Positions 29,260 through 46,006 of a DNA stretch of 64,000 nt are shown one piece after another. The notes under the pieces were generated by a model. It was given only the letters and a program-made list of their open reading frames with translations. It was not told the DNA's origin and did no database searches. Within the stretch, counting starts at the first letter, position 1. Each line of letters starts with the position of its first letter. The stretch is from an uncultured Tateyamaria sp. GTDB lineage: Bacteria > Pseudomonadota > Alphaproteobacteria > Rhodobacterales > Rhodobacteraceae. The translations under genes were made by a program, and so were the position numbers. The stretch is taken from NCBI GenBank assembly GCA_947501275.1, contig CANMVD010000003.1:124001-188000 (forward strand). Reading direction: 5' to 3'.

Positions 29260-32154
29260 ATGCTGAAGAAAAAAACCAACGGGGTTGCGCGACGCCCCCA
29301 GCGGACCGGCATACTATCAGACATCGCTGAAAAATCCGTAGACCGCCGTGCATTCCTGCGCGGATCAGGGCTGGCCATTGGTGGTCTTGCCGCGATTTCC
29401 GCAACAGGCGGCACGGTGACGCAAGCCAACGCGGCCACCGCCGCGAGCGGCGCGGTTGATCTGGTCAAATCCGTCTGCACCCACTGCTCGGTCGGATGTA
29501 CCGTAGTGGCCGAGGTCAGCAACGGCGTCTGGACGGGGCAGGAACCCGGATGGGACAGCCCCTTCAACCTTGGTGCCCACTGCGCCAAAGGGGCCGCCGT
29601 GCGCGAGCACGCCCATGGCGAACGCCGCCTGAAGTACCCTATGAAAAAAGAGGGTGGAGAATGGAAACGCATCAGCTGGGAACAGGCGATCGACGAGATC
29701 GGCGACGGCATGATGAATATCCGCGAAGAAAGCGGTCCGGATTCGGTCTACTGGCTGGGCTCTGCCAAACATAACAACGAACAGGCCTACCTGTTCCGCA
29801 AGTTCGCCGCCTACTGGGGCACGAACAACGTCGATCACCAGGCGCGGATCTGTCACTCGACCACTGTTGCGGGTGTGGCCAACACATGGGGCTACGGCGC
29901 CATGACAAACAGCTACAACGACATCCACAACTCCAAAGCGATCTTTATCATCGGTGGCAACCCCGCCGAGGCGCACCCTGTTTCGCTGCTGCACCTGCTG
30001 CGCGCCAAGGAACAGAACAATGCGCCTGTGATCGTGTGTGATCCACGTTTCACCCGCACGGCGGCCCATGCTGATGAGTATGTGCGCTTCCGTCCTGGTA
30101 CGGACGTCGCACTGGTCTGGGGTATCCTGTGGCACATCTTCGACAACGGGTGGGAAGACAAGGAGTTCATCCGCACCCGTGTCTGGGGCATGGACCAGAT
30201 TCAGGAAGAAGTCGCCCGCTGGACTCCCGAAGAGGTTGAGCGCGTCACCGGCGCCCCCGGATCGCAGCTCAAGCGCGTGGCCCGCACGATGGCCAACAAC
30301 CGTCCCGGCACCGTGATCTGGTGCATGGGCGGCACACAGCACACCAACGGCAACAACAACACGCGTGCCTACTGCGTGCTCCAACTGGCGCTTGGCAACA
30401 TGGGCACATCCGGCGGCGGGACAAATATCTTCCGCGGCCACGACAACGTGCAGGGGGCCACAGACCTTGGCGTTCTGTCCCACACCCTGCCCGGCTATTA
30501 CGGCCTGTCGGCAGGATCATGGGCACACTGGGCCCGTGTCTGGGGTGAAGACGATGACTGGCTCAAGGGCCAGTTCGCCATGACCAAGGATGCGGATGGC
30601 AAGGACAAGTCGCTCCAGCAACTCACGGGCATCCCAGTGTCACGCTGGATCGACGGCGTGCTCGAAGATCCTGAGAACATGGACAACCCCAACAAGGTGC
30701 GTGCCATGGTGCTCTGGGGACACGCGCCAAACTCGCAAACCCGGATGAAAGAGATGAAAACCGCGATGGAGCAGCTGGATATGCTGGTCGTCGTTGACCC
30801 CTATCCAACCGTGTCTGCTGTCATGCACGACCGTACGGATGGCGTCTATCTTCTACCGGCCTGTACCCAGTTTGAAACGCGCGGCTCCGTAACGGCCTCC
30901 AACCGGTCATTCCAATGGCGTGACAAGGTGGTCGATCCGCTGTTCGAATCGCTGCCGGACGAGGTCATCATGGCCAAGTTCGCCAACAAGTTCGGCTGGG
31001 CCGACCGCTTCTTCCGCAATATCGAAATGGAAGATGCCGAAACGCCTGTGGTCGAAAGCGTGACGCGCGAGTTCAACCGCGGCATGTGGACGATCGGCTA
31101 TACCGGGCAGGACCCAGACCGCATCAAGATGCACATGGCCAACCAGCACACGTTCGACAGAACCACGCTGCAAGCCATTGGGGGGCCCGCAGATGGCGAC
31201 TATTACGGTCTGCCATGGCCGTCGTGGGGCACAGCCGACATGAAGCACCCCGGCACTCCCAACCTCTATGACATGTCCAAACGTGTCTCCGAGGGCGGGC
31301 TGACGTTCCGGGCACGCTTTGGCGTGGAGCGGGACGGCGACAACCTGCTGGCCGAAGGGGTGTACTCGCTGGATTCAGATATTCAGGACGGATACCCCGA
31401 ATTCACCATGCAGATGCTGATGGATCTGGGATGGGACAGCGAGTTGACGGACGAAGAGCGCGCCGTCATCGACGGCATTGCCGGGCCAAATACCAACTGG
31501 AAAACCGACCTGTCGGGCGGCATCCAGCGGGTAGCCATCGCGCATGAATGTGCGCCCTTCGGCAACGCCAAGGCGCGCGCCGTGGTCTGGACCTTCCCCG
31601 ATCCGGTGCCAGTCCACCGCGAGCCGCTCTATACCAACCGCCGCGATCTGGTTGAGGATTACCCAACATATGAGGACCGCAAGTTCTATCGCTTGCCGAC
31701 CATGTATGCCTCGATCCAGAAGAACGACTTTTCCAAGGATTACCCGATGATCCTGACGTCAGGTCGTCTCGTCGAGTACGAAGGTGGTGGTGACGAATCC
31801 CGTTCGAACCCATGGCTGGCTGAACTTCAGCAGGACATGTTCGTCGAGATCAACACGCGCGACGCCAACAACCTTGGTATCCGCGATGGCACCCAAGTGT
31901 GGGTTGAGGGCCCGGAAGGCGCCAAGGTCAAAGTGATGGCCATGGTGACCGAGCGGGTCGGTGAAGGGGTGGCATTCATGCCGTTCCACTTTGGCGGCCA
32001 CATGGAAGGTGTGGACCTGAGGGACAAATATCCCGACGGTGCAGACCCCTATGTACTGGGTGAAAGTACCAACACCGCCCAGACCTACGGCTATGATTCA
32101 GTGACCCAGATGCAAGAGACCAAAGCCACTCTCTGCAAAATCTGGACAGCGTAA
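29260..32154 (+). CDS. fdhA: Formate dehydrogenase catalytic subunit, cysteine form, Tat-exported
   Basis: 964-residue member of the molybdopterin oxidoreductase family. A twin-arginine signal (DRRAFLRGS, about residues 27-36) shows export to the periplasm. The [4Fe-4S] cysteines are C73, C76, C80 and C108. The metal ligand is C198 in RICHSTTVAG, where selenocysteine is found in FDH-N, followed by the FDH-typical His. It should oxidise formate to CO2, with Mo or W bound by two pterins. AGGGAGGA precedes ATG 29260; the open frame begins earlier but without a site. The downstream tup genes suggest tungsten. Confidence 0.93.
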   Translation: MLKKKTNGVARRPQRTGILSDIAEKSVDRRAFLRGSGLAIGGLAAISATGGTVTQANAATAASGAVDLVKSVCTHCSVGCTVVAEVSNGVWTGQEPGWDSPFNLGAHCAKGAAVREHAHGERRLKYPMKKEGGEWKRISWEQAIDEIGDGMMNIREESGPDSVYWLGSAKHNNEQAYLFRKFAAYWGTNNVDHQARICHSTTVAGVANTWGYGAMTNSYNDIHNSKAIFIIGGNPAEAHPVSLLHLLRAKEQNNAPVIVCDPRFTRTAAHADEYVRFRPGTDVALVWGILWHIFDNGWEDKEFIRTRVWGMDQIQEEVARWTPEEVERVTGAPGSQLKRVARTMANNRPGTVIWCMGGTQHTNGNNNTRAYCVLQLALGNMGTSGGGTNIFRGHDNVQGATDLGVLSHTLPGYYGLSAGSWAHWARVWGEDDDWLKGQFAMTKDADGKDKSLQQLTGIPVSRWIDGVLEDPENMDNPNKVRAMVLWGHAPNSQTRMKEMKTAMEQLDMLVVVDPYPTVSAVMHDRTDGVYLLPACTQFETRGSVTASNRSFQWRDKVVDPLFESLPDEVIMAKFANKFGWADRFFRNIEMEDAETPVVESVTREFNRGMWTIGYTGQDPDRIKMHMANQHTFDRTTLQAIGGPADGDYYGLPWPSWGTADMKHPGTPNLYDMSKRVSEGGLTFRARFGVERDGDNLLAEGVYSLDSDIQDGYPEFTMQMLMDLGWDSELTDEERAVIDGIAGPNTNWKTDLSGGIQRVAIAHECAPFGNAKARAVVWTFPDPVPVHREPLYTNRRDLVEDYPTYEDRKFYRLPTMYASIQKNDFSKDYPMILTSGRLVEYEGGGDESRSNPWLAELQQDMFVEINTRDANNLGIRDGTQVWVEGPEGAKVKVMAMVTERVGEGVAFMPFHFGGHMEGVDLRDKYPDGADPYVLGESTNTAQTYGYDSVTQMQETKATLCKIWTA

Positions 32155-32167
32155 GGAGGAAAGACAC

Positions 32168-32761
32168 ATGGCAAGAGCAAAGTTTCTCGTCGACGCCGAA
32201 CGCTGCATTGAATGCAACGCCTGCGTCACAGCCTGTAAGAACGAACACGAGGTGCCATGGGGCATCAACCGCCGCAAGGTGGTGACCATCAATGATGGGA
32301 GCCCCGGCGAACGGTCGATCTCTGTGGCGTGTATGCACTGCTCAGATGCACCTTGTATGGCGGTCTGCCCCGTAGACTGCTTTTACCAGAACGAGGAAGG
32401 TGTGGTGCTCCACTCCAAAGACCTCTGCATCGGCTGTGGTTACTGTTTCTACGCGTGCCCCTTTGGTGCGCCGCAGTTCCCGCAGGCAGGCAACTTCGGA
32501 TCGCGCGGCAAGATGGACAAATGTACCTTCTGCGCCGGTGGCCCCGAGGAAACGCACTCCACCGCCGAGTTCGCCAAATACGGGCGCAACCGCATCGCGG
32601 AAGGCAAGCTGCCCATCTGCGCGGAAATGTGCGCAACCAAGGCTCTGCTTGCCGGTGACGGCGACGTGGTGTCGGGCATCTACCGCGAGCGCGTCGTCGC
32701 CCGCGGCTTCGGCTCCGGCGCCTGGGGTTGGGGATCAGCCTACGGTCAGCGCGACGGCTAA
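32168..32761 (+). CDS. fdhB: Formate dehydrogenase iron-sulfur subunit
   Basis: 197 residues with four ferredoxin-type cysteine clusters: CIECNACVTACKNEHEVPWG, CMHCSDAPCMAVCPVDC, CIGCGYCFYACPFG and the later CTFC with CAEMCATKAL. This is the electron-wire subunit between FdhA and the membrane cytochrome. There is no signal peptide, so it is probably co-exported with FdhA. AAGGAGGA at 32154-32161 is a strong ribosome site. A terminator-like hairpin follows it. Confidence 0.93.
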   Translation: MARAKFLVDAERCIECNACVTACKNEHEVPWGINRRKVVTINDGSPGERSISVACMHCSDAPCMAVCPVDCFYQNEEGVVLHSKDLCIGCGYCFYACPFGAPQFPQAGNFGSRGKMDKCTFCAGGPEETHSTAEFAKYGRNRIAEGKLPICAEMCATKALLAGDGDVVSGIYRERVVARGFGSGAWGWGSAYGQRDG

Positions 32762-32787
32762 GCCGCCCTGACTTTGAGAAAAAATCA

Positions 32788-32816
32788 GGGCGGCCCCGAC
32801 GCGGGCCGCCCTTTTT
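32788..32816 (+). terminator. Strong intrinsic terminator between fdhB and fdhC
   Basis: GGGCGGCCC and GGGCCGCCC form nine perfect pairs with a six-base loop, followed by five T. It sits 27 bases after the fdhB stop and 28 bases before fdhC. Read-through would set the ratio of soluble to membrane subunits. Confidence 0.75.
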
Positions 32817-32843
32817 CGCAGACATGAAACAAGAGGATATCCG

Positions 32844-34043
32844 ATGTTTCGCCTTGCCCTTGCACTGCTGCTGTCCCTGACTTTTGCAACGATGTCCCCC
32901 GCGCAAGAGGCCGCACCCGCGCCGGATCGCTCGGCCACAGGCGGCGCACAAACGCTCGAAGACATCATGGCCCGCCAGCGCGGCGAAGAGGTCGACAACA
33001 GCTTTCGCTCAAACGCGCTCGGGGATCCCGACAGCGCGGCTGGCATGGCCAATCAGCTAGGCACACTCGGCGGATCGTCTGACCCGGAACTCTGGCGCGC
33101 CCTGCGCTTTGGGGAGGCCAACGTCACCTCCACTTCTCGCGGGCCTGCGGCCACCACCCTGATCCAGGACGGTGGTATGCGCTGGTTGCTGTTCCGCCAA
33201 GGGCCTCTGGCGACCTATGGCAGCTACCTCTTGGGCGGCACCCTTGTCCTGCTAGCGTTGTTCTACCTGATCCGCGGGCGGATCCGCATTGACGGTGAAA
33301 AGACGGGTCGCAGGATCGAACGGTTCAAGGCCATCGAACGCTTTGGCCACTGGATGCTGGCCGGATCGTTTATCCTGCTCGGGATCACCGGGCTGATATC
33401 ACTGTTCGGGCGCAAGGTGCTGATCCCGGCCTTTGGGCATGATGCATTTTCGACCGTCGCTTTGGCTTCGAAATGGGTGCACAACAACGTCTCATGGGCT
33501 TTCATGATCGCGCTGGTGATGATCTTTGTGATGTGGGTGATCCACAACTTGCCGGATCGCACCGACATCAACTGGCTGCTCAAAGGTGGGGGGATCTTCT
33601 CAAAAGGGCATCCACCAGCCAAGAAATTCAATGCCGGGCAAAAGCTCATTTTCTGGTCAGTGATCGTACTGGGCACCTCGATCTCCGTGTCTGGGCTGTC
33701 GCTGTTGTTCCCGTTCGAGATCAACATGTTCGCCGCCACCTTCGACAAGCTCAACAGCTTTGGAATTTCGGCGGCACTGGGTCTGGGGGAATTGCCGACC
33801 ACGCTTGCCCCGCATGAGGAAATGCAACTGGCCCAGCTATGGCACGCCATCGTCAGCTTTGTGCTGATGGCCATCATTTTCGCGCATATCTACATCGGCT
33901 CAGTCGGGATGGAAGGCGCGTATGACGCCATGGGCTCGGGCGAGGTCGAAGAACAGTGGGCGCGCGAACACCACTCGCTGTGGGTGGACGAGGTTAAGGC
34001 AAAAGAGGCGGCAGCCCCCGAGAGTGCCACCCCCGCCGAGTAA
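32844..34043 (+). CDS. fdhC: Formate dehydrogenase cytochrome b subunit (gamma)
   Basis: 399 residues. Residues 1-21 are a signal peptide, then a periplasmic linker to about 120, and five membrane segments (TYGSYLLGGTLVLLALFYLI; the ERFGHWMLAG helix; VSWAFMIALVMIFVMWVI; the LIFWSVIVLG helix; IVSFVLMAIIFAHIYIG). Conserved histidines in the RFGHW and LWHA/AHIY helices should bind b hemes that pass electrons to quinone. A family-typical tail EGAYDAMGSGEVEEQWAREHH closes the protein. AAGAGGA lies before ATG 32844. Confidence 0.92.
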   Translation: MFRLALALLLSLTFATMSPAQEAAPAPDRSATGGAQTLEDIMARQRGEEVDNSFRSNALGDPDSAAGMANQLGTLGGSSDPELWRALRFGEANVTSTSRGPAATTLIQDGGMRWLLFRQGPLATYGSYLLGGTLVLLALFYLIRGRIRIDGEKTGRRIERFKAIERFGHWMLAGSFILLGITGLISLFGRKVLIPAFGHDAFSTVALASKWVHNNVSWAFMIALVMIFVMWVIHNLPDRTDINWLLKGGGIFSKGHPPAKKFNAGQKLIFWSVIVLGTSISVSGLSLLFPFEINMFAATFDKLNSFGISAALGLGELPTTLAPHEEMQLAQLWHAIVSFVLMAIIFAHIYIGSVGMEGAYDAMGSGEVEEQWAREHHSLWVDEVKAKEAAAPESATPAE

Positions 34044-35363
34044 ATGCTGCGCGCGCTGGCCATATCCTGTTTGCTGGCAAGCCCCTTGGCGGCGCAGGAG
34101 TTCTTTACGCTCAAAGGGCACGGTGGGCCGATCATGGACATTGCCGTGTCCGACAACGGCACCATCGCCACAGCCAGCTTTGACAACGCGGTGGGGCTGT
34201 GGGACGGCTCCACCCCCACCTGGCTCGACGGTCACGAGGCCGCTGTCATCGCGGTCAACTTTTGGAGCGACACATTCGCTGTGTCGGGGGGGGACGACTT
34301 TTCCGTGCGCTTGTGGATCGACGGGCAAAAAACATCGCGCATATTGGGGCAACACGCGGCCAAGGTCACCGACCTTGCCATGTGGCGCGACAAGGAACTT
34401 GTCGTCAGCGCCAGTTGGGACGGCACCCTGGGATTGTGGCCCCTGTCGCGAGACTGGAACAAAGTTTTGTACCCGCCGCTCGGCCAGAACGGCACGCAAT
34501 TGCGCGGGCACAAACTTGGGGTGAATGCCGTCGCTTTCGGGCCTGATGGTGCGCTTTATTCCGCGTCCAGTGACGGCACCATCCGGCAGTGGGACATCGA
34601 CACCGGCAACAGCCGCGCCATCGTCAAGAACGGCTTTGCGGTGAACAAGCTGGTGGTGGATCCTGAAGGTGCATGGCTGGCCTACGGAGCTGTGGATGGC
34701 GTGACCCGGATCATTGATCTGAAGACGGAAACGCAACTACGTGATCTCAGCCTGCAGCGGCGCCCGATCCTTGCCATGGACTTTGATCCCGTGGGCAAGC
34801 AACTCGCGGTCGGGGACGGCGAGGGCTATATCATGGTCGTGGACACGCAAACCTGGCGGATCACGCGAGATTTTCGCGCCACCCAAAGTGGACCCGTCTG
34901 GGCATTGGCATTTTCACCGGATGGGCAAAACCTGCACGCGGGCGGGATTGAGGACATCATGTACTCATGGCCCGTGGCCACTATGGATGAACATGAAGGC
35001 ATGACAGGAACCACCCGCAGCTTTCTGGAAAACCCCGATACGCTGCCCAATGGCGAACGGCAGTTCAAACGCAAATGTTCTATCTGTCACACCCTCACTC
35101 AAGGCAGCGCTCGCAAGGCGGGGCCAAGCCTTTATGGCCTGTTCGGGCGAAAAGCGGGAACTGTTGGCGATTATACCTATTCCCAAACACTCAATGGCTC
35201 CGAAATCATCTGGTCAGCGGAAACGATCAATGCTTTGTTCGACATCGGGCCAGATCATTACATACCGGGTTCCAAAATGCCGATGCAACGCATCGTCAAA
35301 CAGGGCGACCGGGACGATCTGATCGACTTTTTGCGCAAGGCGACCACAGCCGGGGAGAACTGA
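34044..35363 (+). CDS. WD40-repeat protein fused to a C-terminal c-type cytochrome
   Basis: 439 residues. A signal peptide (about 1-18, ending AAQE) is followed by a seven-bladed propeller-like set of WD40 repeats (about 19-320; GHGGPIMDIAVSDNG, HKLGVNAVAFGPDG, SGPVWALAFSPDG). A class I cytochrome c domain (about 335-435) has heme site CSICH at 345-349, GPSLYGLFGRKAG and the axial Met at M412 or M414 in SKMPMQR. It starts directly at the fdhC stop, so it is co-translated with the dehydrogenase. A periplasmic electron carrier docked by the propeller is a reasonable inference. Confidence 0.9.
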   Translation: MLRALAISCLLASPLAAQEFFTLKGHGGPIMDIAVSDNGTIATASFDNAVGLWDGSTPTWLDGHEAAVIAVNFWSDTFAVSGGDDFSVRLWIDGQKTSRILGQHAAKVTDLAMWRDKELVVSASWDGTLGLWPLSRDWNKVLYPPLGQNGTQLRGHKLGVNAVAFGPDGALYSASSDGTIRQWDIDTGNSRAIVKNGFAVNKLVVDPEGAWLAYGAVDGVTRIIDLKTETQLRDLSLQRRPILAMDFDPVGKQLAVGDGEGYIMVVDTQTWRITRDFRATQSGPVWALAFSPDGQNLHAGGIEDIMYSWPVATMDEHEGMTGTTRSFLENPDTLPNGERQFKRKCSICHTLTQGSARKAGPSLYGLFGRKAGTVGDYTYSQTLNGSEIIWSAETINALFDIGPDHYIPGSKMPMQRIVKQGDRDDLIDFLRKATTAGEN

Positions 35364-35364
35364 A

Positions 35365-35493
35365 ATGAAAGTGATGCTCATCGCGTTTGCAGCCATCGCA
35401 GTGATTGCTTTCGGGGCGAACTACATCCTTGGGCAGGCAGGCTTCTCCAGCCAGGATCAGGCCGCCGCCCCGTCCGTGCGCCTCGACGACTGA
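35365..35493 (+). CDS. 42-residue single-pass membrane protein
   Basis: Short frame starting one base after the stop of the WD40-cytochrome gene. The product has one hydrophobic segment (MLIAFAAIAVIAFGANYIL) and a short polar tail ending in VRLDD. The ribosome site GGGGAGAAC lies in the end of the preceding gene. It is sandwiched between the dehydrogenase and tungstate-uptake genes with no gap, which supports it being translated. Function unknown; a small accessory subunit is one possibility. Confidence 0.65.
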   Translation: MKVMLIAFAAIAVIAFGANYILGQAGFSSQDQAAAPSVRLDD

Positions 35494-35524
35494 TTCATCG
35501 CGTGCAAGGCCGAGCGACCAAGAC

Positions 35525-36229
35525 ATGAATGAAATCTGGGCCGGTATAGCGGCAGCATTCCGGCTGATTGTGACACTTGATGCGGATCTGGTGGATATCA
35601 CGCTGCGCTCCCTGCAAGTGAGCCTCTCTGCCCTTGTGATCGCGTCGGTCATTGCGCTGCCATTCGGCACGTGGCTGGCGATCCGACGGTTTCGCTTTCG
35701 CCGCCTGACCATTGCAACGCTGAACGCGCTGATGGGGCTGCCCCCGGTGGTGGTTGGACTGATTGTTTACTTGCTGTTGTCGCGCTCAGGGCCTTTTGGG
35801 GTACTTGGTCTGCTCTTTACGCCAACGGCCATGATCATCGCGCAAGTGATCATCATCACACCCCTGATCGCATCCATCACGCATCAGGCAATGCGCGAAC
35901 TCTGGGCCGAATACCATGACCTGCTGATTTCACTGAACACCACCAAAGGCCAACGGATCATGACGCTGATCCGGGACGGCAGGCGAACACTGCTGACGGC
36001 CGCGCTGGCGGGCTTTGGGCGCGCCATTGGCGAAGTCGGTGCGATTATGATTGTGGGGGGCAACATCGACAATGCCACCCGTGTCCTGACCACCGCCATC
36101 GCGCTTGAAACCGGGAAAGGCGACTTTGCCCTCGCACTTGGCCTCGGCTTCGTGCTGATCGCGCTGGCCCTTCTGGTCAATTTCGCGATCCACGCCCTGT
36201 CGCGTACAGAACGGGAAGGGCGGTGGTGA
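35525..36229 (+). CDS. tupB: Tungstate ABC transporter permease
   Basis: 234-residue inner-membrane permease with five membrane helices and the cytoplasmic EAA-type loop (AEYHDLLISLNTTKGQRIMTLIRDG). This domain layout and GFGRAIGEVGAIMIVGGNI are typical of TupB/WtpB tungstate permeases, related to ModB. It overlaps the ATPase gene by one base and starts 32 bases after the 42-residue gene, so it belongs to the formate dehydrogenase operon. Confidence 0.9.
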   Translation: MNEIWAGIAAAFRLIVTLDADLVDITLRSLQVSLSALVIASVIALPFGTWLAIRRFRFRRLTIATLNALMGLPPVVVGLIVYLLLSRSGPFGVLGLLFTPTAMIIAQVIIITPLIASITHQAMRELWAEYHDLLISLNTTKGQRIMTLIRDGRRTLLTAALAGFGRAIGEVGAIMIVGGNIDNATRVLTTAIALETGKGDFALALGLGFVLIALALLVNFAIHALSRTEREGRW

Positions 36230-36939
36230 TGAAACCCATGTCTGTCGTCCTGAAACAGGCGGTGATCCGGCGGCGAGGGACGCAAATCCTCGGCCCGATT
36301 GACATGACTTTGGGCGAGGCCGGGTTCAGCATCGTGATCGGCCCCAATGGGGCGGGCAAAACCTCGCTGCTCAAGGTGCTGCATGGGGTGGAACGGCTGT
36401 CGAGTGGCACTGTCACATGGTCAGTCCCGGACGAAGACGCACGTCAGTCGCAGGCCTATGTGTTTCAAAAACCGATCATGCTGCGACGCTCGGTGCGCCA
36501 GAACCTCGCCTTTCCGCTGCACCTGTTAAAGGTGCCAAAGGCCGAAATCGCTGAGCGGGTGCAGGACTGGTCGGGACGGATCGGGCTGCACGCAGCTTTG
36601 GACCGCCCCGCAACACGCCTGTCTGGTGGCGAACAGCAAAAACTAGCGCTTGCCCGCGCTCTGATCCGCAACCCGCAAGTGCTGTTTCTGGATGAACCCT
36701 GCGCCAATCTCGACGGTCGCTCGACCCGCGAAATCGAAACGCTGTTACTCGCCTCTTATCACGCGGGAACACGCATCATCATGACAACGCATGACCTTGG
36801 GCAGGCGCGACGGCTTGCCAGCGACGTTGTGTTTCTTTTGAATGGGCACGTGCGCGAACAGGCAAGCGCGCAAGCATTCTTTGCCGCGCAACAAAGCGAC
36901 GAAGCCCGCGCGTTTCTCAACGGGGATATCATCGAATGA
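36229..36939 (+). CDS. tupC: Tungstate ABC transporter ATPase
   Basis: 236-residue ABC ATPase with Walker A GPNGAGKTS, signature LSGGEQQKLALARAL, Walker B VLFLDEPCANLD and the switch His in MTTHDLGQA. There is no C-terminal MOP/TOBE domain as in ModC, so no oxyanion feedback domain is built in. ATG 36229 overlaps the tupB stop (TGATG). Ends with a four-base overlap into tupA. Confidence 0.9.
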   Translation: MKPMSVVLKQAVIRRRGTQILGPIDMTLGEAGFSIVIGPNGAGKTSLLKVLHGVERLSSGTVTWSVPDEDARQSQAYVFQKPIMLRRSVRQNLAFPLHLLKVPKAEIAERVQDWSGRIGLHAALDRPATRLSGGEQQKLALARALIRNPQVLFLDEPCANLDGRSTREIETLLLASYHAGTRIIMTTHDLGQARRLASDVVFLLNGHVREQASAQAFFAAQQSDEARAFLNGDIIE

Positions 36940-37733
36940 TCCGCATTTTGACCGCTGTTCTGATCCTGCTGGCGGGGGCTGTGCAGGCCGACACAATGCG
37001 CCTCGCCGTGACAACCAGCTTTCACAATTCGGGCCTTTCAGACGTGCTACTGCCCGCTATTGAAACCGACACCGGCATCGACGTGCAATTGCTGGTGGTT
37101 GGAACCGGGCAGGCCATAAGGTTGGGAGAAGCAGGCGACGTCGACGCAATCCTCGTGCACTCCCGCAAAGCAGAAGACAGGTTTGTCAGCGCTGGCTACG
37201 GCACGCATCGCCGCGAAATCATGTACAACGATTTTGTGTTTATAGGGCCCGCCGCCGATCCCGCCGAAATCGGGGACGCGGGCAGCGCAGTAACCGCCCT
37301 GCAACGGATCAGTCAAAGCAAAGCGCCCTTTGTGAGCCGAGGCGACGACAGCGGAACCCACAAGAAAGAACGCGCGCTGTGGGCCGCCGCAGAGCAGGAC
37401 CCTGCAACCTTCGCAAGCTGGTACAAGGCCGTGGGCGCAGGCATGGGGGCCAGCCTCAATACAGCCTCAGGACTTGGGGCATACATAATGGCGGACCGCG
37501 CGAGTTGGCTCAATTTCGGGAACAAGCAGGATCTGGCGTTGCTGTTTTCCGGGGACCCGGCCCTGTTCAATCAATACGCCTATATTCCGGTCAATCCCGC
37601 ACGCCACAGCCACGTCAAGGCCAGCGCGGCGCTGCAACTGGAAACATGGCTGACCTCGCCCAAGGCCCAGGGCTTGATCGACGGCTATACAATCGGGGGT
37701 GAAACGCTGTTCACTTTCAACGCCACGCCCTGA
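36936..37733 (+). CDS. tupA: Tungstate-binding periplasmic protein
   Basis: 265 residues with a signal peptide (about 1-18, ending VQAD). The oxyanion-binding start is LAVTTSFHNSGL, matching the TTTS-type TupA motif, followed by GTGQAIRLGEAGDVDAILVH and the conserved MYNDFVFIGP. SRGDDSGTHKKE completes the family pattern. TupA proteins prefer tungstate over molybdate. ATG at 36936 overlaps the tupC stop. It is the last gene of the block beginning with DUF3305. Confidence 0.92.
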   Translation: MIRILTAVLILLAGAVQADTMRLAVTTSFHNSGLSDVLLPAIETDTGIDVQLLVVGTGQAIRLGEAGDVDAILVHSRKAEDRFVSAGYGTHRREIMYNDFVFIGPAADPAEIGDAGSAVTALQRISQSKAPFVSRGDDSGTHKKERALWAAAEQDPATFASWYKAVGAGMGASLNTASGLGAYIMADRASWLNFGNKQDLALLFSGDPALFNQYAYIPVNPARHSHVKASAALQLETWLTSPKAQGLIDGYTIGGETLFTFNATP

Positions 37734-37793
37734 CGGGTCGAGCTTGCAACCGTGACCGATTAACCACTCTTGCGAAAAGCTGCTCATGCGACA

Positions 37794-37819
37794 ATGTTTG
37801 TTCTTTCATGAACAAACAT
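37794..37819. promoter_or_regulatory. Palindrome ATGTTTGTTC/GAACAAACAT, likely operator
   Basis: Perfect ten-base arms around a six-base spacer, 46 bases before the start of the MarR-SAT-APSK frame. With the second site at 37832 it shares the GTTC...GAAC half-sites. This arrangement suits autoregulation by the MarR-type regulator encoded next. Confidence 0.6.
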
Positions 37820-37831
37820 CTCGTGACATAC

Positions 37832-37845
37832 GTTCATCCGTGAAC
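37832..37845. promoter_or_regulatory. Second GTTCA/TGAAC palindrome
   Basis: GTTCA and TGAAC separated by four bases, 20 bases before the ATG at 37866 and 12 bases after the larger palindrome. The shared half-site suggests two binding sites for one protein. Confidence 0.55.
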
Positions 37846-37865
37846 AGTAATTCCGAGTCGGACAC

Positions 37866-39944
37866 ATGCGCAGCGCGGCTATCAAAGCCAGTCAGGATAA
37901 TGAGGACCAGCTATTCAAGCTGCTGCGTCAGCTCGACCTTGCGCCAAGTGCTTCGCAACGCGCCATGGCACAGGCCATTGGCGTGTCACTTGGACGGCTC
38001 AACGCGTTGCTGCGCGAGGCCACGACCGCAGGCTTTATCAGCATCAGCAAACAAGACAATCCTGACAAGCGCAAACGCGTCGCCTATGCCCTCACCGCCA
38101 AAGGCGCCGGGGAAAAGAACCGTCTCACGACCCAATTCCTTGCCCGCAAAATGGCCGAATACGACGCGCTCTATTCCGAGCTGATGGGCACCTCTCCCAA
38201 CACGACCTTACTGAAAGACAGGACCAAATTGATGGAACACAACCTCTCTCCGATCCCAGAACTGTACGTCTCGTATGACAGCGCGCAAAAGCTGAAGACC
38301 GAAGCGGCAGAGCTGACGAGCTGGGACCTGACGCCGCGCCAGATCTGCGATCTGGAATTGCTGATGAACGGTGGCTTCAATCCGCTCAAAGGCTTCCTGT
38401 CCGAAGCAGACTACAACAGCGTCGTAGACACGATGCGCACCACCGACGGGCATCTGTGGCCTATGCCTATCACTCTGGATGTGAACGATAAATTCGCAGA
38501 CAGCCTCGAAATTGGCCAAGATATCGCCCTGCGCGACCAAGAGGGCGTGATCCTCGCCACTATGACAGTGACCGACCGCTGGGAACCCAACAAAGCCCAT
38601 GAGGCTGAAATGGTGTTTGGCGCGGATGACGACGCGCATCCGGCCGTGAACTACCTGCACAATCAGGCAGGCAAAATCTACCTTGGCGGACCCGTCACAG
38701 GCATCCAACAGCCGGTGCATTACGATTTCCGCGCCCGCCGCGACACACCCAACGAGTTGCGCGCTTACTTCCGCAAAATGGGATGGCGCAAGGTGGTTGC
38801 GTTCCAGACCCGCAACCCGCTGCACCGCGCGCACCAGGAACTGACGTTCCGCGCTGCGCGTGAAGCACAGGCAAACCTTCTGATCCACCCTGTTGTAGGT
38901 CTGACCAAACCCGGCGACGTCGATCACTTCACCCGCGTGCGCTGCTACGAGGCAGTGCTCGACAAATACCCGCAGGCCACAACCTCCATGTCGCTACTGA
39001 ACCTCGCCATGCGTATGGCAGGCCCACGCGAGGCAGTCTGGCACGGGCTGATCCGCAAAAACCACGGCTGCACCCACTTCATCGTTGGCCGTGACCACGC
39101 AGGCCCCGGCAAGAACTCTGCCGGTGAAGATTTCTATGGCCCCTATGACGCGCAGGACCTGTTCCGCGAACATCAGGAAGAAATGGGCATCGAAATGGTC
39201 GACTTCAAACACATGGTCTGGGTGCAGGAACGCGCCCAATACGAGGCCATTGACGAGATCAAGGACAAGGATGACATCACCATCCTCAACATCTCGGGCA
39301 CCGAATTGCGCCGTCGTCTGGCCGAAGGTCTGGAAATCCCGGAATGGTTCTCTTTTCCCGAGGTCGTCAAGGAACTGCGCCGCACCAAACCACCACGCAG
39401 CCAGCAAGGCTTTACTGTGTTCTTCACAGGCTTCTCCGGCTCCGGCAAATCCACCATCGCCAACGCGCTGATGGTGAAACTGATGGAGATGGGCGGGCGT
39501 CCCGTGACGCTGCTCGATGGCGACATCGTGCGCAAGAACCTGTCCTCGGAACTAGGTTTCAGCAAAGAGCACCGCGACCTCAACATCCGCCGCATCGGCT
39601 ATGTTGCTTCTGAGATCACCAAGAATGGTGGCATCGCGATCTGTGCACCCATCGCGCCCTATGCAACGACACGCCGGGCCGTGCGCGAAGACATCGAAGC
39701 CTTCGGTGCCTTTGTCGAGGTCCACGTGGCCACCTCAATCGAGGAATGCGAACGCCGCGACCGCAAGGGCCTCTATAAGCTGGCACGCGAAGGCAAGATC
39801 AAAGAGTTCACAGGCATCTCCGATCCCTATGACGTGCCCGCGAACCCCGAACTGAGCGTCGAGACCGAGAATGTGGACGTGGACAACTGCGCCCATCAGG
39901 TCTTGCTCAAACTGGAAAGCATGGGTCTGATCGCGGCTGAATAA
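37866..39944 (+). CDS. MarR-type (EPS-associated) regulator fused in frame to bifunctional sulfate adenylyltransferase/APS kinase
   Basis: One open frame of 692 codons. Residues 1-110 are a winged-helix MarR domain of the exopolysaccharide-associated type (SQRAMAQAIGVSLGRLNALLREA). From about 124, ATP sulfurylase follows, with H320 and H323 in RNPLHRAH and GRDHAG. APS kinase lies at about 515-692, with P-loop GFSGSGKST (K528). The enzyme half makes PAPS from sulfate. An internal ATG at 38232 (codon 123), eight bases after AGGA, is where stand-alone homologues begin, so free SAT-APSK may also be made. TGATG occurs there in another frame, so a one-base error splitting two genes is a real alternative. 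Confidence 0.85.
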   Translation: MRSAAIKASQDNEDQLFKLLRQLDLAPSASQRAMAQAIGVSLGRLNALLREATTAGFISISKQDNPDKRKRVAYALTAKGAGEKNRLTTQFLARKMAEYDALYSELMGTSPNTTLLKDRTKLMEHNLSPIPELYVSYDSAQKLKTEAAELTSWDLTPRQICDLELLMNGGFNPLKGFLSEADYNSVVDTMRTTDGHLWPMPITLDVNDKFADSLEIGQDIALRDQEGVILATMTVTDRWEPNKAHEAEMVFGADDDAHPAVNYLHNQAGKIYLGGPVTGIQQPVHYDFRARRDTPNELRAYFRKMGWRKVVAFQTRNPLHRAHQELTFRAAREAQANLLIHPVVGLTKPGDVDHFTRVRCYEAVLDKYPQATTSMSLLNLAMRMAGPREAVWHGLIRKNHGCTHFIVGRDHAGPGKNSAGEDFYGPYDAQDLFREHQEEMGIEMVDFKHMVWVQERAQYEAIDEIKDKDDITILNISGTELRRRLAEGLEIPEWFSFPEVVKELRRTKPPRSQQGFTVFFTGFSGSGKSTIANALMVKLMEMGGRPVTLLDGDIVRKNLSSELGFSKEHRDLNIRRIGYVASEITKNGGIAICAPIAPYATTRRAVREDIEAFGAFVEVHVATSIEECERRDRKGLYKLAREGKIKEFTGISDPYDVPANPELSVETENVDVDNCAHQVLLKLESMGLIAAE

Positions 39945-39957
39945 ACCGTGTGACAGG

Positions 39958-39977
39958 GGCGCACCAAAGGGTGCGCC
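39958..39977 (+). terminator. First hairpin after SAT-APSK
   Basis: GGCGCACC and GGTGCGCC pair with a four-base loop, 13 bases after the stop, followed by TTA. It is the first of two tandem hairpins. Confidence 0.55.
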
Positions 39978-39994
39978 TTACAAACTGCTTGCAA

Positions 39995-40022
39995 AAAAGG
40001 CGCATCCGACGATGCGCCTTTT
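39995..40022. terminator. Bidirectional intrinsic terminator
   Basis: AAAAGGCGCATC and GATGCGCCTTTT form 12 perfect pairs with a four-base loop, so T-runs follow on both strands. It separates SAT-APSK from the convergent phzF operon. The about 100 bases after it hold nothing recognisable. Confidence 0.8.
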
Positions 40023-40128
40023 GACTTCTGCGTCCACTGATTTAATCAAACCAATCGTGCACAAGGTTTGACACTCTTAACGCGGCGTCCTCATCCACAT
40101 AAATACAGGACGATGCAGACGGTCAGGC

Positions 40129-40998
40129 TCAAAGGTGCAAAACACCGCTCATCAACACATGTGCAGCCCCTTGCACCACGACGCCGGTGATCGCATCACG
40201 CGGTCCCAAGACCTCTACCTGCGCCTGCCCGGGGCGGCCCAATCCATGACCCTGCTCAGCTAAAAAGCGTGGTTCGGTAATCAACCCTTCGGCCCAAAGG
40301 TAAGATGCCATAGCCCCCGTTGCCGACCCGGTGAACGGATCTTCCGGCGGGTTAGGAGGGCTCATCAGCAGGCGCGAAAACGTATCACCTTGTGCCGTTG
40401 CGCCCTCCAACGTGACCCAGAACGGCTCCATCACATCCGTCCCGTAAACGCCCAGTCCATCAAGGTAAGAGCGGAAGGCGGGCATGTCGATCTGCACCCG
40501 CTCCAGCGTCGCGCGGTCCTTTACAACAGTGATGCAGAACGGCAATCCGGTGGACACGACACGGGGTGGGCTCACAATGTCCGTGGCCGATATGCCTCCT
40601 ACCGCAGCGACGACACTGGCATCCACACGGTCCCCGAAGGCGGGTGCAATCTGGGTCATTTTCACAATGTTTCCAGAAACTTCGACAGGGACAATTCCCG
40701 CACCGGTCTCAAGTGTCAGCGCCCCATCCGAAATCAAATCCCGATGGCGCAGAGCGGCGACTGTAGCCACGGTCGGATGACCCGCAAAGGGGATCTCGCG
40801 CCCCGCCAGGAAATAGCGCACGCGGATGTCCGCCAGATCTGATGGCCCCGTAAACGTACATTCGACCAGAGAAGTCTCGCGCACAAAGGCCATGCACACC
40901 TCGTCTGGCAAGGCCGCCCCCTGATGCACCACCGCGCAGCCATTGCCGCCAAACGGGACATCGCTGAAGGCGTCGACCCAATCCACATCATAGCTCAT
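40129..40998 (-). CDS. PhzF family isomerase/epimerase-like protein
   Basis: 289-residue two-domain protein of the diaminopimelate-epimerase fold. The PhzF catalytic Glu is E46 in ETSLVECTF; IPFAGHPTVATVAAL and DPFTGSATGAMASYL are the other family signatures. In this setting it is not a phenazine gene, as no phz genes are present; the substrate is unknown. ATG overlaps the stop of the peptidase gene (ATGA). Last gene of the Hsp20-DUF1150-peptidase-PhzF operon. Confidence 0.87.
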   Translation of the reverse strand: MSYDVDWVDAFSDVPFGGNGCAVVHQGAALPDEVCMAFVRETSLVECTFTGPSDLADIRVRYFLAGREIPFAGHPTVATVAALRHRDLISDGALTLETGAGIVPVEVSGNIVKMTQIAPAFGDRVDASVVAAVGGISATDIVSPPRVVSTGLPFCITVVKDRATLERVQIDMPAFRSYLDGLGVYGTDVMEPFWVTLEGATAQGDTFSRLLMSPPNPPEDPFTGSATGAMASYLWAEGLITEPRFLAEQGHGLGRPGQAQVEVLGPRDAITGVVVQGAAHVLMSGVLHL

Positions 40999-42059
40999 TC
41001 CGCAGTCCTCCCATAGCGGCGAGCGGCACCGTAATCGCGACGAACCTCCTCAAAATCCTGCATAAATTCCTGCACTCCCATATCAAAAGCGGCGATAAAT
41101 GCGTCCTGACGGCTCAGCCCGCGCCCCAATCCACGAAAATACTCAAAGCCAGCATTGGTCCCATGTGCCTGCACCAGCATATAGGCGGCAAAACGGGCCA
41201 CACCGTAGGCCTCGGGGCTGTCCACGCTGCCCGTCGCGTCCAGATCTGCAAGCGTCAGGCGGCTGCGTCTGGCGCGCGATTGCAGATCAAACAGCGCGGT
41301 CCCGTCTGTCTCAAGCGATCCGGTTTTGAATTGCCATTCGACCACTTCGGCCAACCCTTCGACCATCCAGTCCGGGCCAAAAACCCATTCCTCCCCAACG
41401 CGTTGAGGAGGATCATCAGCCGCAAACGCATATTGAACCTGATGGGTGTATTCATGCACAGCGATGGGGCGCAATTGAGTTAGCCTGTCCCGCTCCATTC
41501 CACCTGGCCAGCAAAACATCATATAGCCGCGATTCGCGGCGCCACCGATCTTTGCGCCTTGGCACAATCGACCCGCATCAAGCACACGACTGCGCGACCC
41601 GCGCCCACGCGCGCGCAATAAATCATCAATTGCTGGCTCGAAAAATGCAGGTGTGCCCGCCCCGATCAAGGCGACACGTGTGGCCAACTCGATCCCATAT
41701 GTATCGCGAAAGAAGGCACGCACGACGGTATCTGTCTCGGTTAAAATAGCCCGCTCTTCGGAGCTCGGTGCGATGATCTCCGGGGGGATATCACTGGGCC
41801 AGAAGGCCCGTAATTGCGGATCACGCATGCCCAAGTCACGACACCACGACATCGCGGTGCGCCTTTGCAGAGGCGGAAATTCAGAAGTGTCCTGCACGTT
41901 CTTGGCTGCATCACGCACTGGCGGGCGCATGGTGCCATCCGCTGCGCCCGGCTCAAATCCCAGTATATTCAATTGGTTCTGCAGGCACGCAACGCCTTCC
42001 TGCGCGATCAATGGGCCAGCCCCCAGCCAAAGGCCAAGGGCCAGCGCAACTGCGCGCAT
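40995..42059 (-). CDS. Exported putative zinc metallopeptidase with HEYTH motif
   Basis: 354 residues with a signal peptide (about 1-19, ending LIAQ). Residues about 25-80 resemble a peptidoglycan-binding-like helical domain (LNILGFEPGAADGTMRPPV). The zinc site HEYTH is at 202-206 and a plausible third ligand E234 lies in VEGLAE, as in gluzincins. Substrate unknown. ATG 42059 is preferred: it overlaps the DUF1150 stop by one base, while the codon before it is TTG. Confidence 0.7.
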   Translation of the reverse strand: MRAVALALGLWLGAGPLIAQEGVACLQNQLNILGFEPGAADGTMRPPVRDAAKNVQDTSEFPPLQRRTAMSWCRDLGMRDPQLRAFWPSDIPPEIIAPSSEERAILTETDTVVRAFFRDTYGIELATRVALIGAGTPAFFEPAIDDLLRARGRGSRSRVLDAGRLCQGAKIGGAANRGYMMFCWPGGMERDRLTQLRPIAVHEYTHQVQYAFAADDPPQRVGEEWVFGPDWMVEGLAEVVEWQFKTGSLETDGTALFDLQSRARRSRLTLADLDATGSVDSPEAYGVARFAAYMLVQAHGTNAGFEYFRGLGRGLSRQDAFIAAFDMGVQEFMQDFEEVRRDYGAARRYGRTAE

Positions 42060-42283
42060 CAATGCAACGGCTGTGGGGCGTAGTCATTCTCGCGCGCCAA
42101 CGCAAAGGCCAGTTTTCGGTTGGCGACCAGCGCCAATTGCTGTCCTTCGGCGTCATGAACAGCAAAAAGCTGTTCCAGATCTCCGGCCTGCTCCTGCACT
42201 TCTTGTGGCAGGGCCTGCACTGAGATGGGTTTTACATAAACCATGCGGCCAACATCGGCGTTCAGATCAAAAAGAGGGGTCAT
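42059..42283 (-). CDS. DUF1150 family protein
   Basis: 74-residue alphaproteobacterial protein (GRMVYVKPISVQALP, LFAVHDAEGQQLALVANRKLAF). It starts four bases after the Hsp20 gene, its usual partner, behind AGGAAAGGA. Function unknown; the pairing suggests a role in heat stress. Confidence 0.85.
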   Translation of the reverse strand: MTPLFDLNADVGRMVYVKPISVQALPQEVQEQAGDLEQLFAVHDAEGQQLALVANRKLAFALARENDYAPQPLH

Positions 42284-42286
42284 GGC

Positions 42287-42697
42287 TTATCCTTTCCTGA
42301 TAGAGATGGTCTGTACGATCGTTTCTGGTTTGGCCCGCGTCAGGTCTATGTGCAGCAAGCCGTTTTCCATGATGGCCTCCCCCACTTCGACCCCGTCCGC
42401 CAAAACAAAGCTCCGCTGGAATTGGCGCGCGGCAATACCGCGGTGCAGAAACACCCGCTCGACTGCATCCTCGCCGTGACGGCCCCGGATGACCAGTTGG
42501 CGGTCTTCAACAGTGATAGACAGATCCTCCTCTGCAAATCCGGCCACAGCCAGCGTGATGCGATACGAGTAGTCCGATGTCTGTTCGATATTGAACGGCG
42601 GATAGCCTTCGGCGCCTTTGGCCGTGCGTTCCAGTAGCCGTTCAAGTTGCTCAAACCCAAGCATATGTGGGTATGAGGCGAGAGTCATTTTTGTCAT
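42287..42697 (-). CDS. Small heat-shock protein, Hsp20 family
   Basis: 136-residue alpha-crystallin-domain chaperone that holds unfolding proteins. The domain runs from about 33 to 125 (PPFNIEQTSDYSYRITLAVAGF, VFLHRGIAARQFQRSFVLADGVEV, ENGLLHIDL), of the IbpA type. Start at ATG 42697 with AAGGACG upstream; the frame continues upstream without a site. First gene of a four-gene operon. Confidence 0.9.
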   Translation of the reverse strand: MTKMTLASYPHMLGFEQLERLLERTAKGAEGYPPFNIEQTSDYSYRITLAVAGFAEEDLSITVEDRQLVIRGRHGEDAVERVFLHRGIAARQFQRSFVLADGVEVGEAIMENGLLHIDLTRAKPETIVQTISIRKG

Positions 42698-42852
42698 GCG
42701 ACACGTCCTTTGGATCAAGCGACAGTCAGTGCCCGCCCCTGTGTCGGCGACGAACGTGATAAATATGGGCAGAAACCATGACCATAACAAGGTCTATGCG
42801 CATCGCATCAGCGTGATTATATTGAAGATCTGCAACTATTTGGAATCACACC

Positions 42853-43077
42853 ATGAACGCCCCGACTGACATCTCGATGAAAACGGATGACGTGTTGCGC
42901 GTTGAATTGGCTGTGTTTCAGCGCGAGCATCGTGACCTTGATGACGCCATCCGCGCGCTGCAGGACAAAGGCACATCGGATCAACTGACCATCCAGCGGC
43001 TGAAGAAACGCAAGCTGATGCTCAAGGACAAGATTGCAAATATCGAAGACCGCCTGACGCCCGACATCATCGCCTGA
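42853..43077 (+). CDS. YdcH (DUF465) family protein
   Basis: 74-residue helical protein (EHRDLDDAIRALQDKGTSDQLTIQRLKKRKLMLKDKI contains the family core QREHRDLDDAI and RLKKRKLMLKD). Forms coiled coils; function unknown. It is divergent from hsp20, across 155 bases, and upstream of purE with a 213-base gap that holds no gene. Confidence 0.85.
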   Translation: MNAPTDISMKTDDVLRVELAVFQREHRDLDDAIRALQDKGTSDQLTIQRLKKRKLMLKDKIANIEDRLTPDIIA

Positions 43078-43290
43078 GCATACGCAGGGCCGATATCCGC
43101 CCAGTCCGAGAAATGCGCACGCTCACAGCGATTTGCGCGCCTTGAGGGTCCTTGCTTGCTGCTTTTTGCCCCATGATCGCAGCACGTTCTTCGAGGCGGG
43201 ATCGCATGCCCCGGATCACGCACCCAGCCCATTGCCACGCAAGGCGATCTGGCTATAGTGCGCGCTTTCCAAACAAGGCGTGTTTCAGTC

Positions 43291-43785
43291 ATGACATCCC
43301 CCACCCCTTCCGTCGGAATCATCATGGGCAGCCAGTCCGACTGGCCCACCATGCGTGAAGCAGCCGATATGTTGGATCAGCTCAAGGTCCCCTATGAAAC
43401 GCGGATCGTGTCGGCCCACCGCACACCGGACCGGTTGTGGGAATACGGCAAGTCAGCTGCTGACAGGGGACTGAAGGTGATCATTGCGGGGGCTGGCGGC
43501 GCCGCCCACCTGCCCGGCATGATGGCATCCAAGACGCGCGTGCCGGTGATCGGCGTGCCGGTCCAGACAAAGGCCCTGTCCGGGGTGGACAGTCTTTATT
43601 CCATTGTGCAGATGCCGCGCGGCTATCCCGTTGCAACCATGGCCATCGGCAGCGCCGGAGCTGCCAATGCCGGGCTTATGGCCGCCGGTATTCTCGCCAC
43701 CAGCGACGTGGATCTGGCAGAACGGCTGGACGCATGGCGCGCGGCGCTGTCTGCCTCAATTCCGGAGGTACCTGTAGATGACTAA
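43291..43785 (+). CDS. purE: N5-carboxyaminoimidazole ribonucleotide mutase
   Basis: 164 residues, class I PurE of purine synthesis, converting N5-CAIR to CAIR. Family landmarks: [42 protein letters not shown]. Start at ATG 43291; the frame extends upstream without a site. It overlaps purK by eight bases. Confidence 0.95.
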
Positions 43786-44845
43786 GCCTCTGGCGCCCGG
43801 CGCAACCATCGGCATTCTTGGTGGTGGTCAGTTGGGGCGCATGTTGTCCGTCGCAGCAGCCCGCCTTGGGTTTCGTACACATATCTTCGAACCCGGCGCG
43901 CAGCCCCCTGCGGCAGATGTTGCACATGCCGTGACAACCGCCGCCTACGAGGACAACGACGCCCTGTTTGCCTTTGCCACCAGCGTCGATGTGATCACCT
44001 ATGAATTCGAAAACATCCCGACCCTGACCCTGGACGCCCTCGAAGATCACGCGCCCATCCGCCCCGGGCGCGAAGCCTTGCGCGTCAGTCAGGATCGTTT
44101 GGTTGAAAAGGATTTCCTCACGGGTCTTGGCCTCAAGACCGCGCCATATGCGGATGTGCCGGATCTGCCTGCTCTTGCGACCGCCTTGGCACAATTCGGT
44201 ACGCCGGCGATCCTGAAAACGCGGCGTCTGGGCTACGACGGCAAGGGGCAGGTTCGCATCACGGATGCCACCGAAACAGCCGCCGCCTTTGACGCCATGC
44301 AAGGGGCGGACGCGATCCTCGAAGGGTTTGTTGCGTTCAGTCACGAGGTATCTGTCATTGCCGCGCGGGGATTGGACGGTGCAGTGGCCTGTTTCGATCC
44401 TGGCGAAAACGTTCATGTAAACGGGATCCTTAGCACCACGACCGTGCCTGCGACCCTGTCCGCAAGCCAACGTACGGATGCAATCCTGCTGGCTGCCAAC
44501 ATCCTGAATGCGTTGGATTATGTGGGTGTCATGGGGGTCGAGCTATTCGTCACACCGCAGGGTCTGGTCGTGAACGAGATCGCGCCACGGGTGCACAATT
44601 CCGGCCATTGGACACAAAACGGCTGTGCGGTGGATCAGTTCGAACAACACATCCGCGCCGTGGCCGGTTGGCCGCTTGGCGATGGCCAGCGGGTTGTCGA
44701 TGTGGTGATGGAAAACCTGATCGGTGACGACATGGATCGTGTGGCAGATATCGCAGGCGAACGGGATGCCGCGCTACATCTCTATGGCAAGGCCGAGGCG
44801 CGTCCCGGTCGCAAAATGGGTCACGTGAATCGCATCAAACGCTGA
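43778..44845 (+). CDS. purK: N5-carboxyaminoimidazole ribonucleotide synthase
   Basis: 355-residue ATP-grasp enzyme that carboxylates AIR with bicarbonate and ATP, partner of PurE. N-terminal [11 protein letters not shown], the [14 protein letters not shown]-grasp loop, and ENIPTLTLD are characteristic, as is [17 protein letters not shown]. Overlaps purE by eight bases and converges on phnM with a nine-base gap. Confidence 0.95.
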
Positions 44846-44854
44846 CGCGAACGA

Positions 44855-46006
44855 TTATGCTGCCGCGATCAGCCGCTCGACAATGTCGCCACTCGCGTAG
44901 CTGAAACGCCCGCCCGACATAGTGGCCGCAACGCGGTCCTGCGCGTCCAGCACCACCAGATCGGCGCGCAGTCCCGGCTGCAAGTGACCGCGATCGTCCA
45001 GCCCCAGCACACTGGCCGGACCAGAGGACACCAGCGCCCAAGCGCCGCTGAAGTCCAGCACGCCACTGCGGGCCAGCATGAGGGCCGCGCGGCGCGGCGA
45101 GGGATAGTGATAGTCAGACGCGAGGGCATCACACAGCCCCATCGCGATCAAATCAATGGCCGAGGCATTGCCTTTGTGCGAGCCCCCCCGCACCACGTTC
45201 GGAGCGCCCAAGACCACCTTGTCGCCACTCGCCTTGGCCGCTTCCGCAGCCTCGAGCGTTTCCGGAAACTCAGCCACTTGCGCCCCGCGCGCGTGCCAGA
45301 TTGCACGGTCTTCGGCGGTGTGATCGTCATGGCTGCCAAACCGGACGCCTTGTTTGACCAGCTGTGCACATAAACGATCCAGCGCAGGTCCGGTTGCGTC
45401 GCTGTTGGCGTGCAATTCTAGCAAGGCAGCAAAATGTGCATCCGGGTTGCGCCCTGACTTCAGCGCCTGCCCGGTCAGCCCCGCAGGCCGCTTGCCTTGG
45501 GCCAATCGGTCATGGGGCAAATGGTCGTTAAAGACCACGTAATCGAGCCCCCACGCGGCCACCCGCTCGGCCAGACCTTCGTAGAGGTCCATCTGGTGCG
45601 TCTCAAACCGCAGCTGGCCGCGCAAATCAGTGACGCACTTGCCACGCAATTCGGCCAACGCGACAAAAACCTTGTCAGCAAAGTCCAGCCCGCGCAGCCC
45701 ACCTTCCCAACTGACAAACTGTGCCAGCACGCCCGTCGTGATGCCGTTGATGGCAAGCTCAGCCTCGCTGGCGCGCAACCCTTCGTCCATCTGCTTCATC
45801 GCGCCCCGGCGTGGGGCAACATGGCGCTCAAATCCGTCCCCGTGGACGTCGATCATCCCCGGCAACACCCGGTAACCAGTCACATCGACAGACCTGCCCG
45901 TCGGCGCATCCACCACCCGGCCTTCGGCGACAGACAGTGTTGCGCCATCAAACCCATCGGGCCGCAGAACTTCGCCACCAACCAGATCAATCTCCAGCAT
46001 CGCCAT
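44855..46006 (-). CDS. phnM: Alpha-D-ribose 1-methylphosphonate 5-triphosphate diphosphatase (PhnM), stand-alone
   Basis: 383-residue amidohydrolase-fold protein of the C-P lyase pathway, which removes pyrophosphate from the ribose-phosphonate intermediate. Metal-ligand motifs [20 protein letters not shown] and ASDYHYPSP are those of PhnM. Start at ATG 46006 behind ACGGAG, overlapping the lipase gene by 20 bases. No phnGHIJKL is visible within the window, so the substrate here may differ or the other genes may lie elsewhere. Confidence 0.88.

Follow-up and report, generated by a model that had tools for sequence, protein, structure and literature searches.

The enzyme that activates sulfate appears, from the comparison of related sequences, to be made in two forms from a single gene in many marine bacteria, one plain and one joined to a DNA-binding domain. 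The joined domain probably switches off its own gene, so that the enzyme seems to regulate its own abundance. The gene was found in a window of 64,000 nucleotides from an uncultured Tateyamaria sp. (contig CANMVD010000003.1), which is the whole stretch of DNA analyzed here and the source of the coordinates given below, except those that name a locus. We consider it quite likely that the gene encodes an autoregulated "trigger enzyme" with two products, a DNA-binding bifunctional ATP sulfurylase-APS kinase (SAT-APSK) and a free SAT-APSK.

The fused gene (37866–39944, + strand) was read from the window as a single open frame of 692 residues, consisting of a winged-helix domain of the MarR_EPS type, an ATP sulfurylase and an APS kinase. 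The winged-helix DNA-binding domain (residues 12–106; 37899–38183, +) matches the MarR_EPS model TIGR04176 with an E-value of 4e-23 and 81.5 bits when the N-terminal part of 122 residues is scanned alone, slightly short of the curated threshold of 88 bits. Each of the 37 domains in the alignment matches this family at E≤0.001. A linker (38187–38231, +), variable in sequence except for Arg119, leads into the enzyme. Residues 121–690 match the bifunctional SAT-APSK model PRK05537 with 1047.9 bits (cut-off 669) over profile positions 4–571 of 572, and the protein contains the sequences GFSGSGKST and QTRNPLHRAH, which we take to be motifs for the two catalytic activities of SAT-APSK. The open frame with both profile matches bears out an earlier note on this DNA, made from the letters alone, in which a regulator and a SAT-APS kinase had been read in one frame. 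The enzyme part also matches solved SAT-APSK structures (2gks, 3cr8, and the fungal 1i2d and 1m8p, the latter two being the nearest solved sequences to the fused protein). No match among 36 solved sequences reaches the N-terminal domain, the matched stretches starting at residue 129 or later.

The AlphaFold model of the domain (mean pLDDT 86.5) shows a winged helix whose C-terminal helix (residues 78–107) is long. A Foldseek search with this model returned 65 PDB chains at E≤0.001. Almost all of the 50 chains listed belong to MarR-type regulators, with E-values down to 9.7e-06 and TM-scores of about 0.44–0.60 of the query. The MarR operator complexes 5h3r and 6c2s are among these matches. As modeled, the domain has a MarR-type winged-helix fold. 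The full-length model is weak, with a mean pLDDT of 67.4 in the SAT part, and the domain is not placeable on the enzyme.

A search with the whole 692-residue protein covered 61 genomes, 20 of which belong to Tateyamaria. The unbroken fusion is present in 17 of these 20, comprising the window's own genome and 16 others at about 89–92% identity, and in three further genera of the sample. Stops flagged in two genomes (G015 and G012) are the normal C-terminal stop. Two Tateyamaria loci (L022 and L023) encode a free SAT-APSK that lacks the domain and starts at the position corresponding to the internal start of the fused genes. In the locus L026, from a small genome of 3.1 Mb (G019), the region of the domain is broken by several stops with SAT-APSK open; the AGGA-N8-ATG arrangement still precedes the enzyme, and the exact upstream palindrome is gone. 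This locus looks like a gene whose regulator is in the process of being lost.

The family was sampled with 394 genomes from 393 genera (about one per genus), which were searched with an alignment of the domain. The domain was matched in 135 genomes, and 90 genomes, as counted among the matches listed, carry the fusion, with E-values of 2.2e-44 or better and frames as long as a fusion requires unless the contig ends. Standalone regulators score 2.9e-30 or worse among the matches listed, leaving a clear gap to the 90 fused proteins. A divergent fusion with a frame of 713 residues (L137 in genome G338, E-value 1.5e-20) differs in its linker, carries a pair of palindromes 25 bases from each other, and possibly represents an independent or fast-evolving fusion. 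SAT-APSK is present in 325 of the 394 genomes at E≤1e-100; since most of these genes are free (about 235, i.e. 325 minus the 90 fused), control by a fused domain is dispensable. Among 385 genomes drawn from across the class, a sample that includes some of the same family, only two genomes, both from the family, showed the fusion and four others standalone regulators, at a threshold (E≤1e-20) that would miss a divergent fusion such as that of G338.

Two sets of loci were used for the comparisons that follow. The first contains 106 fused loci from about 90 genera, of which 105 were used; L087, although fused, was dropped when the script found no anchor in it. The second, partly overlapping the first, contains the best 80 of 235 loci, with representatives of Octadecabacter, Roseovarius, Sulfitobacter, Phaeobacter italicus, Aliiroseovarius, Mameliella and Shimia. 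In the second set, the open fusion, the upstream palindrome and the AGG codon described below occur together in 79 of 80 loci (79/79 testable), the exception, L217, ending before SAT. Judged from this spread of sequences, the fusion of regulator and enzyme is genuine and old.

The spread also bears on whether an indel has joined two truly separate genes coupled by a stop-start, as the earlier note had feared from a TGA in the +1 frame at 38230–38232. The corresponding TGATG (38230–38234) is indeed there; as a conserved coupling signal it did not hold up, as only 40 of 103 fused relatives have it, and different bases precede the start in the others. Relatives with separate genes by way of one indel were looked for, and the 20 Tateyamaria genomes contain none. 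An error of sequencing or assembly is ruled out by the independent genomes that share the frame (17/20 in the genus, 90/394 in the family, 79/80 in the second set), and against the same counts we give virtually no credence to a joining of separate genes.

Both the domain and its predicted DNA-reading surface are conserved. Within the genus, the median dN/dS is 0.095 for the domain (127 pairs) and 0.057 for the adjoining SAT segment (136 pairs), both values being approximate with dS near saturation. The predicted recognition helix (residues 42–54; 37989–38027, +) carries the motif S-L-G-R-L-N from residue 41. The pattern SLGxxN is found in 104 of 105 fused domains (103 by pattern and L097, with SLGRLN, by eye), the remaining one having SVGKLN, and Ser41, Gly43 and Asn46 are invariant among 69 aligned proteins.

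Two predicted operator palindromes of the form GTTC-N6-GAAC, neither assigned a strand, precede the gene in the window, the outer one, GTTCTTTCATGAAC, at 37800–37813 and the inner one, GTTCATCCGTGAAC, at 37832–37845. Such a pair, 32 bases apart from start to start, lies upstream of the 17 Tateyamaria fusions; each of the 17 fusion-bearing genomes has it exactly once, the three genomes lacking the fusion do not have it, and the reversed pattern gave no hit in the 20 genomes. A third GTTC-N6-GAAC in the window (42583–42596) lies inside an Hsp20-like frame, reads GTTCG...TGAAC and does not fit the strict form; it is probably due to chance. Among the 105 fused genes, an exact GTTC-N6-GAAC lies just upstream of 104, and the sole exception, L106, is cut by a contig end such that 70 of 245 upstream bases were scanned. 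The same arms at gaps of 2–5 and 7–12 bases are found exactly in 0–3 of the 105 loci, and in 4–50 when one mismatch is allowed. The palindrome is absent within 600 bases of all 39 SAT-APSK loci without an intact domain that were scanned, namely the decayed L026 and 38 free genes taken from the top-ranking matches (of about 235 free genes); 18 of the 39 were also checked over 1.3–1.5 kb. The palindrome is thus strictly linked to the domain in these loci, in counts that are non-independent across relatives.

A strict tandem pattern matched 16 of the 394 family genomes, 13 at the fused gene and three elsewhere (G414, G236 and G072), and its reversed control matched seven. The general form is therefore the single palindrome, the tandem arrangement being a feature of the window's genus and of some other genera.

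The labels fused and free were placed on a SAT tree built by a quick method (112 inner branches, 46 of them open and 13 well supported). They require 26 changes, four of them forced, compared with an average of 32.7 for shuffled labels. Well-supported branches yield four independent fused/free pairs, all of which agree (sign test, p = 0.125), and all branches together yield 26. In this test, the operator label is the same as the fusion label, since there is no exception among the rows of the tree. The long branch of L026 was placed away from its genus, a position we do not trust.

An alignment of 103 upstream regions on the inner palindrome revealed promoter-like elements at fixed distances, CTTTNC at −29 to −24 and TGMNATRY at −8 to −1, followed directly by the palindrome. 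The palindrome itself has the consensus GTTCA-N4-TGAAC within a somewhat wider dyad. In the window, the predicted −35-like element is CTTTCA (37803–37808, +), over which the outer palindrome lies, and the predicted extended −10-like element is TGACATAC (37824–37831, +), with the inner palindrome directly behind it. The region looks like a promoter whose predicted start is covered by an operator. A scan with the sigma-70 consensus called no promoter upstream of the fused gene, so the position of the operator relative to the true start is a predicted one. An operator directly behind the −10 element is in the position typical of repressors, which argues against the domain being an activator or a switch of opposite sign. 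We regard activation as unlikely, with the qualification that the sign of regulation is unreadable from sequence and that the second palindrome of the genus, over the −35-like element, would suit an activator.

Standalone MarR_EPS regulators offer a comparison outside the fusion. Among 20 such loci, all eight with an SLGxxN helix (L219, L221, L223, L224, L225, L232, L233 and L238) have the palindrome 90–277 bases upstream of the domain; among 11 loci with other helices, it occurs in one (L220) and is absent from 10, and a single locus with ALGKVN has it at −649. GTTCA-N4-TGAAC is a likely operator of the SLGxxN subgroup of standalone MarR_EPS proteins, the link between domain and palindrome in these loci being a correlation across related proteins. 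The fused domain resembles the TIGR04176 regulators in its sequence, its SLGxxN helix and its upstream palindrome; it differs from them in being fused to an enzyme, in scoring just below the family cut-off and in the lack of recognizable EPS neighbors.

This last difference concerns a coupling of exopolysaccharide control to sulfate activation that the earlier note had entertained. "EPS" enters only through the name of the protein family, and no EPS gene was recognized beside the fused gene when the frames of 30000–48000 were read by eye; the coupling is unsupported. Directly upstream (29176–37733) are what we take, from their translations, to be formate dehydrogenase-like genes, a WD-repeat/cytochrome frame and a tungstate-type ABC transporter, and downstream is a presumably PhzF-like gene.

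The strict palindrome GTTCA-N4-TGAAC occurs at two sites in the window's genome, one at the fused gene and the other within a long coding frame, compared with five sites for the reversed control; in its strict single form, the palindrome is not rarer here than expected by chance. Since the only other strict site is within a coding frame and the tandem pair is found only at the fused gene, the one predicted target is the fused gene itself. Over the 20 Tateyamaria genomes, the strict form occurs 101 times, compared with 34 for the reversed control, an excess of about threefold for which the 17 sites at the fused gene do not suffice; other targets are thus possible. Ten further sites from part of this list (L269–L278, from G000, G001, G003, G006, G012 and G013) were inspected, the genome-wide scan having covered the strict form, and nine lie inside long open frames. 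The tenth, L278 in G012, is upstream of a standalone MarR_EPS gene. This gene faces a gene whose translation reads as a NusG/RfaH-like antiterminator (L278:1419–1775 and 2086–2634), with GTTCACCAATGAAC in between.

An action of the regulator part in trans, coupling exopolysaccharide or other genes to sulfate activation, would be in keeping with the excess of strict palindromes, the family name, the antiterminator gene beside the standalone relative and the five sulfotransferase-family proteins that score over cut-off in the window's genome (see below). Given the single additional site in that genome, the uniqueness of the tandem pair and the location of nine of the ten inspected sites in long open frames, we hold such a role to be improbable.

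The junction of domain and enzyme contains a second translation signal. The earlier note had pointed to an internal ATG with AGGA as a possible source of free SAT-APSK, and this signal proved to be conserved far beyond chance. The predicted internal ribosome-binding site AGGA (38220–38223, +) includes the codon AGG of Arg119, and the ATG at 38232–38234 would start a free SAT-APSK of 570 residues (38232–39944, +). The linker arginine, four codons before the start of SAT, is encoded by AGG in 103 of 105 fused genes, giving AGGA-N8-start; the two others are L086, with CGG, and L137, with its other linker. The start codon is conserved as well, being ATG in 98, GTG in four and TTG in one of 103 genes, and in the second set ATG in 66, GTG in 12 and TTG in one of 79, with AGG in all 79. 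Elsewhere in the parts of the fused genes examined AGG is rare, with 34 others among about 5,300 other arginine codons. Over 44 columns around the junction, in a per-codon table that left out L132, L133 and L137, no other column shows as strong a codon bias as the AGG of Arg119 (z = 34.6; second-ranking value 9.8). Neighboring linker residues change freely, and L132 and L133, whose linkers are of other lengths, retain AGGA-N8-ATG. On this pattern of codon conservation, the predicted internal ribosome-binding site and start codon are under selection. The first start has a Shine-Dalgarno match of three bases or none in 92 of 104 loci, and the internal start one of 4–5 bases in 102 of 102, a comparison that is partly circular in that the internal loci had been chosen for AGG and the first start was taken as the first ATG behind the palindrome. 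With so weak a first Shine-Dalgarno sequence, little full-length protein may be made.

The stronger-looking internal signal, together with the three loci that manage without an intact domain (L022, L023 and L026), would also suit a gene in which only the internal start is used and the N-terminal region is a functionless remnant, translated or untranslated. The purifying selection on the domain, the invariant residues of its recognition helix and the presence of the palindrome with the domain but not without it all speak against this reading, and we think it improbable.

In the window's genome, the fused gene is the single SAT match, and the only PF01507 protein is best identified as CysH rather than CysD; the fused enzyme would therefore serve general sulfate activation and is probably its sole route in this organism. 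The CysH protein (L279:1360–2127) matches PRK02090 with 271.6 bits (cut-off 154); for TIGR02055 and TIGR02057, the models specific to APS and PAPS reductases, its scores are below the respective cut-offs. It has a CC...CxxC pattern, presumably of the APS-reductase type, so PAPS may be unneeded for cysteine and APS may be the branch point. Six matches to sulfotransferase families, five of them over cut-off, indicate a possible use for PAPS.

We infer the following scheme for the autoregulated, two-product enzyme. The MarR-like N-terminal winged helix would bind the GTTCA-N4-TGAAC palindromes on the promoter of its own gene, most likely blocking RNA polymerase, and transcription would be lowered when the enzyme, or a sensed product (PAPS or APS), is plentiful. 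The stronger-looking second ribosome-binding site before the SAT start would probably yield mostly plain SAT-APSK and less of the long, DNA-binding form, which could assemble with the plain enzyme. The scheme in full detail, in which the enzyme is its own repressor, translation sets the dose, the two forms co-assemble, PAPS or APS switches the promoter, and domain and operator are retained or lost as a unit in this family of mostly marine bacteria, we put at about even odds. The nearest solved enzymes, 1i2d and 1m8p, are to our understanding the ATP sulfurylase of Penicillium chrysogenum. In that enzyme, an APS-kinase-like domain gives allosteric control by PAPS (PMC3734648), which makes PAPS the first candidate for the ligand.

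Trigger enzymes that repress their own operons include NadR. PutA and BirA are enzymes of the same kind, as described in PMC6978683. The fused gene resembles PutA and BirA in that a DNA-binding domain and a metabolic enzyme share one polypeptide; it differs in its enzyme (SAT-APSK), in its domain (a MarR_EPS-type winged helix with one predicted target) and in the conserved internal start for a domain-free enzyme, the regulation being a predicted one here. In-frame alternative starts that give an N-terminally truncated product with a role of its own are described for CheA, infB and CcmM in PMC11005335. The fused gene likewise has two in-frame starts, with a long and a short product predicted; unlike in those cases, the long form would regulate the gene that makes both. 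No report of the fusion or its regulation was found in the literature searched (open-licence PMC papers), in which a knock-out of the bifunctional SAT-APSK gene of Phaeobacter gallaeciensis DSM 17395 is mentioned (PMC3678758).

For the annotation of these genomes, the one annotated start of a fused gene may hide two proteins. If the proposed autoregulation is true, GTTCA-N4-TGAAC, tied to the SLGxxN helix, becomes a candidate operator of some MarR_EPS regulators, and the fused gene is a natural case of an internal start uncoupling an enzyme from a repressor. Many marine bacteria could then control sulfate activation without a separate regulator.
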